This document shows, piece after piece, positions 2,573 through 13,758 of a DNA stretch of 64,000 nt (the stretch's first letter is position 1; each line of letters opens with the position of its first letter). The notes below the pieces were generated by a model that saw only the letters and a list, made by a program, of their open reading frames with translations, had not been told where the DNA came from and made no database searches. This DNA comes from Lachnospiraceae bacterium (lineage in GTDB: Bacteria > Bacillota > Clostridia > Lachnospirales > Lachnospiraceae). Position numbers and translations under genes: made by a program. Where the stretch lies: NCBI GenBank assembly GCA_024697065.1, contig JAILGE010000028.1, positions 1-64,000 on the forward strand, in the 5' to 3' direction.

Positions 2573-4174
2573 TCATCTCGTGAATTTGCTGATAAACTTC
2601 CATGCCTCTTCGGCTGTGTGGTGTCTGTACTCATGTATCTGATTGTCTATGCTTGCGAATGCCGTACGGCAGACACCGTCTTCGCTGTCATAATAATTAA
2701 CGGTGAGATTTGCATCCCTTACTTCATCATGAATGACTTCCCTGCGATCGGGTGTTTCACCCCAAAGAGGATCGGGCCAGTTGTCCTTGTCCTCGAAATC
2801 AACATCAAACTTCTTTTTGAGATTATTTGCTTCCGCAGCGTATTGAACTCTCTCAAGCGCCGTAATATCCCTGTTAGGAAGCTCGGGAAGGAATGTCTTC
2901 TCTCCTCCCGAATAAAAGATCGGTACAGGAACAGTCCTGTTGACCCATGCTCCGTCTTCCCACGGTCTGCCGAATATGTTGTTCTTAACAGGGAACAGAG
3001 CGCTTCCGGGAGCCATTCCGGCAAACTTCCCGGGGAATTCCATGAACAGATCCCAAGTCTTGCCGCTGCCCATTGAGAATCCGGTCGCGTATATCCTCTT
3101 TTCATCGATATTGTAGTTCATCCTGATATGATCGATGAGTTCCATCGCCTCTGCTGCTGTTACATCCTGATGGTTTTCCACCGAAACGAACATAAAGCCG
3201 TACCTGTGAGCGATCTCCCACCAGTCGACAACAAAAGTCAGATACATCGATGAATCCCCGCCTCCGTGGAAACCGACAAGAAGCGGAGCCGGTCCTTTGT
3301 CGAAAAGATCGTTGTTGTAATATGCGAAATATCCGACGGGATGCTCCTTTGTGCCCTTATATTTGCCCATATTGTAGGGCGAAGTATGAACCGTGCACTT
3401 ACCGGCCTTTTCGGTCATATCAAGTGATTTAAAGTCAGGTTCGATATCGATATGCCCGCACCACATCTTGAACTTTCGAACGAAGCTCTTAAAGTCTTCT
3501 TTATAATCTGCCTCGTCCTTTATAAGGAGGCTTTCGCAACCGTCAAAGGCCGCGTTGATCTCAGCACTGTTGCCGACAGTAATAACGGCGATATCCTTAC
3601 GCTCGACATCGGGAACAACGGAAAGTTTTTCCATGGAGCACATGGCGGGTGTGATCTCGCCGGGTCCCCAGAGGTATTCGCCTTCGATCGTCTTTAATAG
3701 GTTTTTGGCAACATAATCTGCCGAAGCACCTTTGCTGTAGATATCTGTTCTGAACTTGGCACCGCGTACGAAATAGCCCTTGAATTCTCTCGTAAAGAAA
3801 TCAGTGATCGAAACGTACCCATCGGTATAGTTCGAGTCCATCTTGATCTCGGCGATAAGGTCAATATACAACTGCGTAGTGGCATTCTTCCAGCCACCTT
3901 CACATGTGGGATAAACAAAAAGAACGCTCGAATCAACGTCTGCCGCAATGTCGGCAAGACCTGTCTTTGCAGCGAATGCCACCGCACCGTCTCTGTCAAG
4001 TCGCTCTTCCTCAAACACAAGCAGAAGCGGTGCCCTGAAACCATAGTTATTGATGTCTCCCTCTACTTTTGATACAGGTACGACAACCTTCAGAAAGAAG
4101 CTCTCATAAGTGTGTTCCCAATACTTTGTTCCGTCGTTAAGGATCTGAACGACAGGTTTCTCCATCATAGCCAT
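2573..4174 (-). CDS. Alpha/beta hydrolase, esterase/PHB-depolymerase-like
   Basis: A 533-residue protein with an unassigned N-terminal half (1-260) and a C-terminal alpha/beta-hydrolase domain. GFHGGGD at about 301-307 is the oxyanion region. ATGFSMGSG with Ser367 is the nucleophile elbow. A His in the C-terminal IHEYRHH stretch is the likely catalytic base. No signal peptide is visible, so it is probably cytoplasmic. The start at 4174 is supported by AGAGGAG seven bases upstream. It resembles the PHB-depolymerase/feruloyl-esterase group in which such catalytic domains are found (family knowledge). The substrate cannot be inferred. It has its own promoter and is divergent from the MATE gene. 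Confidence 0.75.
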   Translation of the reverse strand: MAMMEKPVVQILNDGTKYWEHTYESFFLKVVVPVSKVEGDINNYGFRAPLLLVFEEERLDRDGAVAFAAKTGLADIAADVDSSVLFVYPTCEGGWKNATTQLYIDLIAEIKMDSNYTDGYVSITDFFTREFKGYFVRGAKFRTDIYSKGASADYVAKNLLKTIEGEYLWGPGEITPAMCSMEKLSVVPDVERKDIAVITVGNSAEINAAFDGCESLLIKDEADYKEDFKSFVRKFKMWCGHIDIEPDFKSLDMTEKAGKCTVHTSPYNMGKYKGTKEHPVGYFAYYNNDLFDKGPAPLLVGFHGGGDSSMYLTFVVDWWEIAHRYGFMFVSVENHQDVTAAEAMELIDHIRMNYNIDEKRIYATGFSMGSGKTWDLFMEFPGKFAGMAPGSALFPVKNNIFGRPWEDGAWVNRTVPVPIFYSGGEKTFLPELPNRDITALERVQYAAEANNLKKKFDVDFEDKDNWPDPLWGETPDRREVIHDEVRDANLTVNYYDSEDGVCRTAFASIDNQIHEYRHHTAEEAWKFISKFTR

Positions 4175-11245: not shown

Positions 11246-12046
11246 TCATTCAAAGCACTTCCTGAATGCCGTAATGTTTTTCCCATCCTCCGCACCATAT
11301 ATCGCGAAGCATATATTCTCGAAGCAGTACCCGTACTTATCGTCTATTATGACTCTGCGGAAGTATTCGGATACATCCTCCGGCTTGTTTCCGAAGGCTC
11401 CGCAGCCCCACGCTCCCAGGATGATATCCTTGTAGCCGTATTTTGCGGCCGCGGCAAGCATTATCCTGATCCTTCTGATGAAAGTCTCTTCTATGAGCTT
11501 ATTGCTTGCAAGGAGCGCCGCTCCGAACCTGTTGGGAGCAGGTACCGTTACCACTGCCATGGTTACAGGTTCTTCCAACAGTTCATATTTCTCGTCACGG
11601 ATGACGACCACCTCAGGTGATATCAGCATATAGTCCGATTCGACACGCCCAGGATGAAGGTTGTTATATCTGTACATCTTAGAAGCTTCTTTTGAAGTAA
11701 TAGACTCATAGAGACTGCTGCATCTGCACAGAGCTTCTTCCTGCGTACTTGCTCCAAGTAAAAAACCGCCTCCGGGATTATGAGCATTTGCGAAATTCAT
11801 CACAAGCGGGTTTTTATACATCCTGCCGGCCTGAAATGAATCGGCATTTATGACATTTATCCTGCACATCTCATCTTTCATCAGAGACGAGATGCCCTTT
11901 TCCAGATATGCCTTTCCGTCCTCCGGAGAAATGACGACCACGCTGTCGGTCTTTACCGCAGGAAAAAGTACTCCCCTGTCGCCGAGCATATATTTGCCGT
12001 CTTTTACGATATTTAAGGTCTGCTTTGCAATTGCTATATTGTTCAT
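11246..12046 (-). CDS. PARG-like macrodomain protein (TIGR02452 type)
   Basis: A 266-residue bacterial poly(ADP-ribose) glycohydrolase-like macrodomain. The signature is intact: PGGGFLLGASTQEEALCR gives GGG at 92-94 and the catalytic QEE at 102-104. FANAHN precedes it, and GAWGCGAFGN contributes the distal ribose-phosphate loop. Such enzymes hydrolyse ADP-ribose from proteins or nucleic acids, and bacterial forms also occur in toxin-reversal settings (family knowledge). Its ATG overlaps the stop of the acylphosphatase by four bases, so the two are translationally coupled. It is the last gene of the VYGPP-lipoprotein/radical SAM operon. Whether ADP-ribose plays a part in that system is open. 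Confidence 0.85.
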   Translation of the reverse strand: MNNIAIAKQTLNIVKDGKYMLGDRGVLFPAVKTDSVVVISPEDGKAYLEKGISSLMKDEMCRINVINADSFQAGRMYKNPLVMNFANAHNPGGGFLLGASTQEEALCRCSSLYESITSKEASKMYRYNNLHPGRVESDYMLISPEVVVIRDEKYELLEEPVTMAVVTVPAPNRFGAALLASNKLIEETFIRRIRIMLAAAAKYGYKDIILGAWGCGAFGNKPEDVSEYFRRVIIDDKYGYCFENICFAIYGAEDGKNITAFRKCFE

Positions 12047-12309
12047 ATAGTTCTAAACCCCATTTCATCCTCTACAGGAGTCAGTTTTTGGACATCCATG
12101 CTTTCTATCATCACATATCGCCCCTGACCTATCGCTGTGATAACCGCATCTACGGATTCCTCCGAGCCCTGTATCTCCATGCTCACACTTCCGTCCCATT
12201 CATTTCTGACCCAGCCGGTACAGCCATACATTTCAGCCGCATGCATAGCCCTGTAGCGAAAGCCGACACCCTGTACGGCACCGTAAAATACTATATATTT
12301 TCGAACCAT
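12043..12309 (-). CDS. acyP: Acylphosphatase
   Basis: An 88-residue acylphosphatase, the full family length, hydrolysing carboxyl-phosphate bonds. The phosphate loop VQGVGFRYR carries the catalytic Arg18. Asn36 in GWVRNEWDGSV positions the water; the 18-residue spacing equals that of the vertebrate enzymes. It starts three bases after the radical SAM gene and overlaps the PARG-like gene by four bases, so it belongs to that operon. Acylphosphatases are common housekeeping genes, so the linkage may be incidental. Confidence 0.92.
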   Translation of the reverse strand: MVRKYIVFYGAVQGVGFRYRAMHAAEMYGCTGWVRNEWDGSVSMEIQGSEESVDAVITAIGQGRYVMIESMDVQKLTPVEDEMGFRTI

Positions 12310-12312
12310 AGT

Positions 12313-13380
12313 CTAGAACAGCACTCCCTTAAAGCACACCTTCGGCTTTTCATTCTCATAATCCCAGCTGTGGTATGCGTCGCCTCTGCACCACTTTGCT
12401 TCCGGGCAGGCCGCACATTTCTCGTTACGCTCGGAAAGCGGTGTACGGTATATTTCAAATCGTTCTTTCCACAGCTTTGTAAAGCTCTCTGAATTTATAT
12501 TACCCTGTATGGTCTTTTCATTTCTCGGGATATCGATGCAGGCAGTCACGTCACCGTTAACCAGTACTCCCGCAACATAGATTCCCGCATTGCATAGGAA
12601 ATACCAGTCACGTACTTCCGCCTCGTATTCCAGTCCCAGGAAATGAGTACAGGAGTATGTTACCGGAATCCGCTTTTTCCGCTTCTCCTTTATGAACTCC
12701 ATTATCATACGGTTATCATCCGCAGTAAGCAGCATATCCGGAACCATCTCGGCACGGCCTATAGGCTCGATGCCGGTCAGTCGCCACTCATTGATATCCA
12801 TCCCGTCGAACACATCAAAAAGCGCATCCAGCTCATCTATATTCTCATGATTCACGACCGTCGTGACCATTATATTAAAGCAGTCTTCATCAATAAGATT
12901 CTGTATGCCTTCCATTCCCAGCTTATATGCGTCCTTAAGGCCTCTGTAGCGGTCATGGGTTTCAGGCAGGCCATCGATACTTAGTGATATGCTCTTCATC
13001 CCCGCTTCCTTCAGATGATGAGCCACCTCTTTCGTGATAAGCGTCCCGTTGCTGGTCATCCCCCACTTGAATCCCAGCTCTTGTGTATATTCCATGAGCT
13101 CAAAAAAATCCGGATACAGAAGAGGCTCACCGCCTGTCACGGCGATCAGCGCCTTTGTCCCGAAATTCTCTTTTACTTCATCCAGAAGCGACTTATATTT
13201 TTCCACAGGCAGCCCGTCCGGCAGATTCCCGCCACAGCTGCTTCCGCAGTGAAAGCAATGTTCGTTGCACTTAAGCGTCAGCTCTAAAAAAAGCTGCTTA
13301 AGAATCGGTTCCTTACGCAGCTTTTTCTGATAGTCCGCAAGTGTATCCAGATTACGTATCTTGATCTCTTCCCTTGTCAT
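12313..13380 (-). CDS. Radical SAM/SPASM enzyme, probable lipoprotein maturase
   Basis: A 355-residue radical SAM protein. The [4Fe-4S] cysteines are Cys38, Cys42 and Cys45 in LTLKCNEHCFHCG, followed by the SAM-binding VTGGEPLLYPDF. The C-terminal half carries a SPASM-type auxiliary-cluster pattern: a Cys in FLCNAG, GDVTAC, then Cys322, Cys325 and Cys331 in CAACPEAKWC, and Cys349. SPASM enzymes mostly modify peptides. It lies 18 bases downstream of a lipoprotein gene carrying three VYGPP motifs, the obvious substrate candidate. From memory, Bacteroidetes have a radical SAM family paired with small lipoproteins bearing a YGTP-type motif; this looks like a Firmicute counterpart. The chemistry is unknown. 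Confidence 0.85.
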   Translation of the reverse strand: MTREEIKIRNLDTLADYQKKLRKEPILKQLFLELTLKCNEHCFHCGSSCGGNLPDGLPVEKYKSLLDEVKENFGTKALIAVTGGEPLLYPDFFELMEYTQELGFKWGMTSNGTLITKEVAHHLKEAGMKSISLSIDGLPETHDRYRGLKDAYKLGMEGIQNLIDEDCFNIMVTTVVNHENIDELDALFDVFDGMDINEWRLTGIEPIGRAEMVPDMLLTADDNRMIMEFIKEKRKKRIPVTYSCTHFLGLEYEAEVRDWYFLCNAGIYVAGVLVNGDVTACIDIPRNEKTIQGNINSESFTKLWKERFEIYRTPLSERNEKCAACPEAKWCRGDAYHSWDYENEKPKVCFKGVLF

Positions 13381-13398
13381 CCGTCACTATCCTGTAAA

Positions 13399-13758
13399 TT
13401 AAAAATCTTCCGGCGGTCCGTACACATCAGGCAGCTCATTATCCTCGACGTTAACTGTCGGTGTCGGAGCATCAGTCACTTCCGGTGCGTCCGTAGCTTC
13501 ACCCCGCTCATTTTCATGCTCTTCCAGTACCTGAGGAGGACCATATACAGCTGCCGGTTCGTTATCATCCACGCCCATGGTCGTCTGAGGCGATATTGCA
13601 TCTCCACTCAAACTGTTACCATCGTCTTCGATCTGAATATTATTATTGCCGGGATCATAACCAGGCGGGCCGTACACGCAGCCCGAGAAACCACCCACTG
13701 AGAACAGCGTGGTGGCAGCCAGCCCAAATACTGCCGCTTTCTTTTTCGTCATCTTCAT
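13399..13758 (-). CDS. Small lipoprotein with three VYGPP motifs, candidate radical SAM substrate
   Basis: A 119-residue precursor. A Lys-rich start and hydrophobic core lead to a lipobox-like FSGC with Cys27, so the mature protein would begin C-V-Y-G-P-P. The pentapeptide VYGPP occurs at 28-32, 71-75 and 112-116. The last two follow near-identical acidic leaders (DDNEPAA and EDNELPD), and the third sits three residues from the C-terminus. The rest is low-complexity Asp/Glu/Thr/Pro-rich linker. GGAGGGG lies seven bases before the ATG. The gene starts the radical SAM operon. Periodic identical cores on a flexible chain are what a multi-site modified substrate looks like; no modification is proven. 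Confidence 0.8.
   Translation of the reverse strand: MKMTKKKAAVFGLAATTLFSVGGFSGCVYGPPGYDPGNNNIQIEDDGNSLSGDAISPQTTMGVDDNEPAAVYGPPQVLEEHENERGEATDAPEVTDAPTPTVNVEDNELPDVYGPPEDF

Follow-up and report, generated by a model that had tools for sequence, protein, structure and literature searches.

What does a radical SAM enzyme do when its gene directly follows that of a small lipoprotein repeating the same five residues three times along its chain? The question is raised by a two-gene unit of a rumen bacterium of the Lachnospiraceae, found in a stretch of 64,000 nucleotides (contig JAILGE010000028.1, positions 1 to 64,000; "the window" below). The enzyme gene begins 18 nt downstream of the lipoprotein gene, and the pair would encode a maturase and its own multi-site substrate (Table 1). 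Further downstream on the same strand are genes for an acylphosphatase (12043-12309) and a TIGR02452 protein (PARG_cat_microb, 11246-12046); neither could be recognised in the 18 neighbour clusters seen most often beside the enzyme's relatives.

Table 1. Features of the gene pair, by position in the window.
Feature	Position	Strand	Basis
Predicted lipoprotein, 119 aa, putative multi-site substrate	13399..13758	-	ORF list
Signal peptide (residues 1-26) and predicted lipidated Cys27	13678..13758	-	MKMTKKKAAVFGLAATTLFSVGGFSGC, by pattern
VYGPP site 1, residues 28-32, immediately after Cys27	13663..13677	-	sequence
VYGPP site 2, residues 71-75	13534..13548	-	sequence
VYGPP site 3, residues 112-116	13411..13425	-	sequence
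Radical SAM/SPASM enzyme, 355 aa, putative splicease	12313..13380	-	Pfam, NCBIfam, tree, AlphaFold2, Foldseek
CxxxCxxC (residues 38-45) of the SAM-binding cluster, then GS (46-47)	13246..13269	-	alignment
SPASM region, residues 263-349, with C263, C281, C322, C325, C331, C349	12334..12594	-	Pfam, alignment

A sequence-only reading of the window had described three identical VYGPP copies, a predicted lipid-bearing cysteine right before the first, and an acidic chain, and all three are found in the translated reading frame. Across the six frames of the window VYGPP occurs only at the three lipoprotein sites. Cys27 closes a lipobox-like FSGC (residues 24-27, by pattern only) and, as predicted lipid anchor, is the single cysteine of a mature chain of 93 residues that has 22 Asp or Glu and one Lys or Arg. 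A putative Shine-Dalgarno sequence, GGAGGGG, lies 5′ of the gene. The protein had no match at E up to 1 in Pfam or NCBIfam, nor to the TIGR04134 model, with which controls L145 and L146 scored 207 and 44 bits. A 14-base pattern for VYGPP had three matches in the genome, all in the lipoprotein gene, and its backward control also had three, so that the number alone says little and it is the clustering that counts. Because the codons differ between copies (GTG TAC GGC CCG CCT, GTA TAT GGT CCT CCT and GTG TAC GGA CCG CCG), identity is held at the protein level and is not that of a fresh DNA repeat. When the mature chain was shuffled, any pentapeptide reached three copies in 3 of 20,000 shuffles; on these shuffles and the codon diversity, chance repeats were rejected.

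The enzyme's radical SAM and SPASM-type cysteines, said in that reading to be intact, are so with one refinement. Pfam recognised Radical_SAM (88.6 bits) and SPASM (30.6 bits), both above cut-off, and the CxxxCxxC cysteines stand at 38, 42 and 45; the fourth cysteine of CX2CX5CX3C (position 335) is missing, as it is from every VY and TIGR04133 row in the tree described below; C49 and C244 are present in all of these rows instead. The AlphaFold2 model (pLDDT 92.6, pTM 0.90) places a single N-terminal helix (3-23) ahead of the core, and thus the enzyme has no N-terminal winged-helix (RRE) domain; no RRE gene was found among the neighbouring ORFs scanned with Pfam and NCBIfam. The top solved matches of the model in Foldseek were SkfB, SuiB and anSME. 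The top NCBIfam match was TIGR04133 at 261 bits (E 1.4e-77) against a cut-off of 425, with controls L145 and L146 at 608 and 451 bits; the numbers TIGR04133 and TIGR04134, named in the earlier reading, were the right ones, the second being the partner family of the first. AhbD (148 bits), NirJ2 (147) and mycofactocin (131) came next, and TIGR04103 scored below these at 105 bits (cut-off 725; Nostoc control 853). The next relative in the enzyme's own genome was at E 1.1e-11, and the closest named genome among the matches listed is Lachnospiraceae bacterium XPB1003, with a 99% identical enzyme.

The enzyme is a sister of TIGR04133 and not a member of it. The tree holds 27 VY enzymes (the window enzyme included), 3 of TIGR04133, 15 around TIGR04103, and an outgroup of 9 rows (AhbD-like, MftC and TIGR04053); ACGX, WgkB, StsB, ScmE and PlpX itself are absent from it. 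The VY enzymes are sister to the three TIGR04133 members at 100/99, not nested among them, and both groups lie with the TIGR04103-side rows on one side of a 100/99 branch, which is a bipartition and a clade only if the root falls within the outgroup. Support was 92/89 in a first tree and 100/99 in a second, where four long-branch outgroup rows (the genome's own C22, Rhizobium, Deinococcus and TIGR04347) had been dropped and five AhbD-like rows (one above the AhbD cut-off) added. G46-S47 follows CxxxCxxC in all 45 ingroup rows (outgroup 0/9 and 2/9), and G249, E253 and R257 are kept in 93-96% of them (outgroup 0/9 each).

TIGR04103 is, we take it, IPR026482, the PlpX family. A YG partner was read for 6 of the 15 rows on this side: Nostoc, three KYG systems and two GDL-type enzymes. 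In Nostoc a Nif11 precursor ending LYGLPPELF adjoins the TIGR04103 enzyme, and a second Nif11 precursor and the NHLP precursors have no YG; the GDL-type enzymes adjoin six DUF1843 peptides, three with YG and the others with YA or YM. VYAGP-type proteins were seen near TIGR04103-like enzymes of the same bacterial family in five of seven loci examined (L028, L030, L031, L032 and L034; none seen in L029 or L033), in multiple copies in four of the five. Their sites are VYAGP (13) and VYMGP, VYNGP, AYAGP, IYAGP and TYAGP (one each), with a residue between Tyr and Gly in 18/18; they have no evident lipobox, and some have zinc-ribbon-like CxxC tails. They appear to be a second family of repeat substrates. 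The enzymes near them form a clade grouped with the PlpX side, and their sequences suggest that either the site has changed there or Y-G is not strictly required.

The pairing of enzyme and YG-motif protein is strong. We kept for locus reading 80 named relatives from at least 575 matches listed, and 66 of them have a YG-motif ORF at most 350 nt upstream (median gap 26 nt). In one of the other 14 (L068) the adjacent lipoprotein has VYGIP and YGVD, which the strict pattern does not cover. The remaining 13 have no partner in the flanks fetched, and their genomes have VYGPP proteins elsewhere: in ten the protein is multi-site, G409 and G410 each have a lipoprotein with one site, and in G401 a fragment lies at the edge of a contig. 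In three of these 13 the protein may lie on the same contig, less than 6 kb away. The statement on non-adjacent partners is based on the ORFs read, because the 14-base pattern also matches by chance (backward control 0 to 10 matches in each of these genomes). Strict adjacency was accordingly dropped as a defining feature. Among ORFs of at least 90 residues the lipoprotein cluster was found at 41 loci and the next commonest neighbour family at 6.

An even draw of 397 genomes of the same family yielded a TIGR04133-type match above 200 bits in 19, the next genome scoring 189. Seventeen of the 19 have a YG-motif protein, adjacent in 16 and distant in one (G120, a DUF805 fusion); three of these partners are zinc-ribbon proteins (IYGPKP, IYGPMP and CIYGPPP), and G266 has two small lipoproteins with YYGCP. 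All 17 genomes free of a visible enzyme defect have the partner; the G248 enzyme is cut by a contig end, and the G266 match was flagged for one stop, which lies before the enzyme start. The other two, G041 and G189, have broken enzymes and no VYGPP match in the genome: the former lacks the CxxxCxxC stretch, and the latter has its N-terminal part in another frame, possibly by assembly error, next to an ORF that resembles a lipoprotein and has LYAPPP. Distribution of the pair is patchy, as two other species of the genus lack a comparable enzyme (the best match in G004 is at E 2.7e-18, and G335 has none). Of 398 genomes drawn evenly from the phylum, 2 gave a match at E 1e-70, the window's own and one of the same family; spread beyond the bacterial family rests on the named relatives among the at least 575 matches listed.

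The sequence-only reading had asked whether VYGPP proteins usually occur without such an enzyme. An 18-base VYGPPE pattern, run over 394 genomes of the same family, matched in 18 (backward control at most 2 per genome). Seven genomes have at least two clustered sites (G007, G116, G120, G142, G180, G229 and G238), and each of them belongs to the 19 enzyme carriers (p 1.8e-10), so the pairing was not refuted. Two single matches (G000 and G313) lie in true partners. The nine other single-match genomes have no enzyme match above 200 bits, and their VYGPPE lies in ORFs or frames unlike these lipoproteins, the sole look-alike being G273, where VYGPPE sits on the acidic tail of a frame of 613 aa. A PlpX-side enzyme occurs in G158, and in G357 there are pieces of a related enzyme with stops.

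Some partners are not lipoproteins (zinc-ribbon, DUF805 and Big_2 proteins), and the partners at large can have little in common but the motif. Pfam domains above cut-off are DUF805 (L130), Big_2 (L070), Peptidase_M15_4 (L060) and zinc-ribbon (L007), and below it are a zinc-ribbon match in L125 and a lipocalin-like match in L141. The product foreseen by the earlier reading, a lipoprotein with several modified sites, therefore stands for its several sites per protein and not as a general description. Small proteins of zinc-ribbon type that have one [VI]YGPxP between ribbons (L007:2525-2911, L012, L023, L125:1336-1641 and L133) are adjacent partners of three enzymes, two of which form the deepest VY branch, or are extra VYGPP proteins elsewhere in the genome. 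The YG-motif lipoprotein L060:2246-3097 includes a D-alanyl-D-alanine carboxypeptidase domain (Peptidase_M15_4), and its sites lie between anchor and enzyme; by eye, L056 and L068 resemble it. A single-site variant is seen in L019, where an intact enzyme lies between two tiny lipoproteins (1327-1530 and 3098-3289), each with one YYGCPNS and a strongly basic tail.

Motif conservation was examined in 82 de-duplicated precursors with at least two YGPP each, some of them near-copies from close genomes. VYGPP occurs 255 times in them, and variants one step away number 32 for xYGPP, 0 for VxGPP, 0 for VYxPP, 2 for VYGxP and 6 for VYGPx. Zero changes of Tyr or Gly in 40 has p 1.3e-9 under equal odds at five positions, as a guide only, the set having been chosen by YGPP. 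At 294 XYGP sites the residue X is V in 261, L in 24, M in 3, A and D in 2 each, and I and E in one each. An invariant Tyr and Gly after a variable residue fit an X-Y-G rule, here as conservation only and within precursors selected by YGPP. A loose lipobox pattern is present in 71/82.

This rule is that of the spliceases. As far as the available parts of the sources go, PlpX, together with PlpY, cuts tyramine out of Xaa-Tyr-Gly (PMC11002830), can use several splice sites in one precursor (PMC10373908), and acts natively at MYG and LYG without requiring a leader (PMC10533398). Printed splice tags include one with YGxP (..RPLYGLPI) and one without it (..GYGVVFP) (PMC10533398, in part); by the YGVV tag, the prolines of VYGPP lie outside the PlpX rule.

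That the enzyme modifies the lipoprotein motif is very likely from pairing and conservation, and the chemistry at the VYG sites is somewhat more likely to be splicing than not. On balance we lean towards a pair made up of a leaderless tyramine-excising splicease and a three-site lipoprotein substrate, bearing ketoamides at the surface. The cytoplasmic enzyme would act on the flexible VYG(PP) segments ahead of export, presumably recognising the short motif itself with no RRE-bound leader. A tyramine equivalent (C8H9NO, about -135.07 Da) would be cut from each Val-Tyr-Gly and the chain rejoined, as with PlpX, leaving a Val-derived α-keto-β-amino residue ahead of Gly-Pro-Pro; with all three sites spliced the expected mass change is -405.21 Da. 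The spliced protein would then be exported and, by its lipobox pattern, lipidated on Cys27, so that the cell surface may display an acidic chain bearing as many as three electrophilic ketoamides. Its likely role, the weakest step, would be to trap or inhibit proteases, going by spliceotide products described as protease inhibitors in the accessible parts of PMC11117315 and PMC10373908. The sequence-only reading had supposed a Firmicute counterpart in which Tyr is crosslinked or altered: tree and co-occurrence bear out the Bacillota counterpart, and the X-Y-G core and phylogeny favour tyramine excision over the crosslink.

Several observations speak against splicing: YA or VYAGP sites occur too among the PlpX-side relatives, a YG partner was read for only 6 of the 15 rows there, TIGR04103 scored 105 of 725 bits, the fourth CX2CX5CX3C cysteine of the PlpX side is missing from VY and TIGR04133 enzymes, the neighbouring ORFs scanned include no RRE gene, and the tree that ties the enzyme to PlpX has nine outgroup rows and lacks PlpX. 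Some other radical reaction at the same YG sites, such as a Tyr C-C crosslink within VYGPP (-2 Da), oxidation of the Tyr β-carbon or epimerisation, is rather unlikely and still deserves weight. An aromatic-X-X crosslink, the mark of three-residue cyclophane maturases, leaves no trace in sequence. Many such reactions are known for SPASM enzymes, MftC, which is in our outgroup, acts on a C-terminal Val-Tyr, the closest solved folds are those of peptide maturases and sulfatase activators, and the VYAGP sites and YA-containing DUF1843 peptides keep Tyr without Y-G; yet the conservation of X-Y-G and the grouping with TIGR04103 suit splicing better. Thioether chemistry is unlikely, since 74/82 precursors are Cys-free from the first motif onward, and for the window, where the lipobox Cys is the only one of the mature chain, the sactipeptide and ranthipeptide types were rejected.

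Short proline-rich motifs that recur along disordered chains are often protein-binding sites, and VYGPP might be a site for a ligand or partner, with the enzyme acting on another target or merely sharing the operon. The single VYGPPE on the acidic tail in G273, a genome without an enzyme match above 200 bits, would suit such a role. We hold it improbable, as co-occurrence persists with the genes apart, the motif is common to zinc-ribbon, DUF805 and Big_2 proteins, and it is absent from the two genomes with broken enzymes. That a heme- or cofactor-type enzyme like AhbD or NirJ2 has been misread as a peptide maturase is hardly credible: these families do score second and third after TIGR04133, but the AhbD-like rows lie beyond the 100/99 branch and the pairing with a motif protein would go unexplained.

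To our knowledge, tyrosine backbone excision has so far been described mainly for small peptides. A broader extension of the splicing reading, to which we give somewhat less than even weight, is that a leaderless, RRE-free splicease clade, including the orphan TIGR04133, reads a bare X-Y-G-x-P tag wherever present, be it in lipoproteins, membrane proteins, a D-Ala-D-Ala carboxypeptidase or zinc-ribbon proteins. Surface lipoproteins of Bacillota from rumen and gut would then bear arrays of α-keto-β-amino acids, and backbone splicing would be a general protein modification, beyond released peptides. Should the splicing reading be right, many bacteria of rumen and gut would carry, on their surface lipoproteins, backbone ketoamides able to react with proteases and amines, which standard proteomics would miss. 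The clade might also be a source of spliceases that need no leader and use shorter tags, something called for in the case of PlpXY (PMC10533398).

Our literature search, made without the main splicease survey and so no basis for judging priority, found nothing on TIGR04133/TIGR04134 chemistry or on spliced lipoproteins, and the available parts of PMC10352776 and PMC13289728 contained no mention of either. Among known or related systems, the KYGYP/KYGVP loci, from genomes of the same bacterial family, resemble the window in that a TIGR04103-like enzyme adjoins a protein with repeated YG(x)P (L024:2488-3024, L026:2495-3400 and L027:2630-2893); they differ in having mostly Lys before Tyr (Ala, Glu and Met once each), no lipobox seen, and enzymes on the PlpX side. 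The L024 and L026 proteins are alike at the N-terminus and were not recognised by Pfam at E 0.1; a chagasin (I42) domain, suspected there, had no Pfam match at E up to 0.1. The PlpX spliceases (IPR026482), as described in the portions of the literature available, share with the window the radical SAM/SPASM architecture, the X-Y-G core and the possibility of multi-site precursors, and their side of the tree shares CxxxCxxC-GS. They differ in having the RRE protein PlpY and Nif11- or NHLP-type precursors, whereas the substrates of the window-enzyme clade are mostly lipoproteins and the window has no RRE among the neighbours scanned; the fourth cysteine of CX2CX5CX3C is present on the PlpX side.

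Nearest is TIGR04133/TIGR04134 (rSAM_w_lipo and its lipoprotein, of Bacteroidota and Treponema), likewise an adjacent gene pair with a SPASM enzyme of the same cysteine pattern, in a sister clade, and with a lipoprotein bearing YG(x)P near the lipid Cys: EYGSP and CYGMP in the two annotated proteins, EYGTP in an unannotated Phocaeicola neighbour. In the CYGMP protein (L146:2586-2972, Treponema saccharophilum plasmid pTS1) the lipobox Cys of TSCYGMP is seemingly the X of X-Y-G, so that the lipidated and the predicted modified residue would coincide. The window enzyme reaches 261 of the 425 bits and its lipoprotein does not match TIGR04134. The two annotated proteins have YG(x)P once, ahead of a CarboxypepD_reg-like region (below cut-off in the Treponema protein), whereas the acidic chain of the window lipoprotein has several sites. 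For this named pair, being grouped with TIGR04103 points to a precise chemistry that can be tested.
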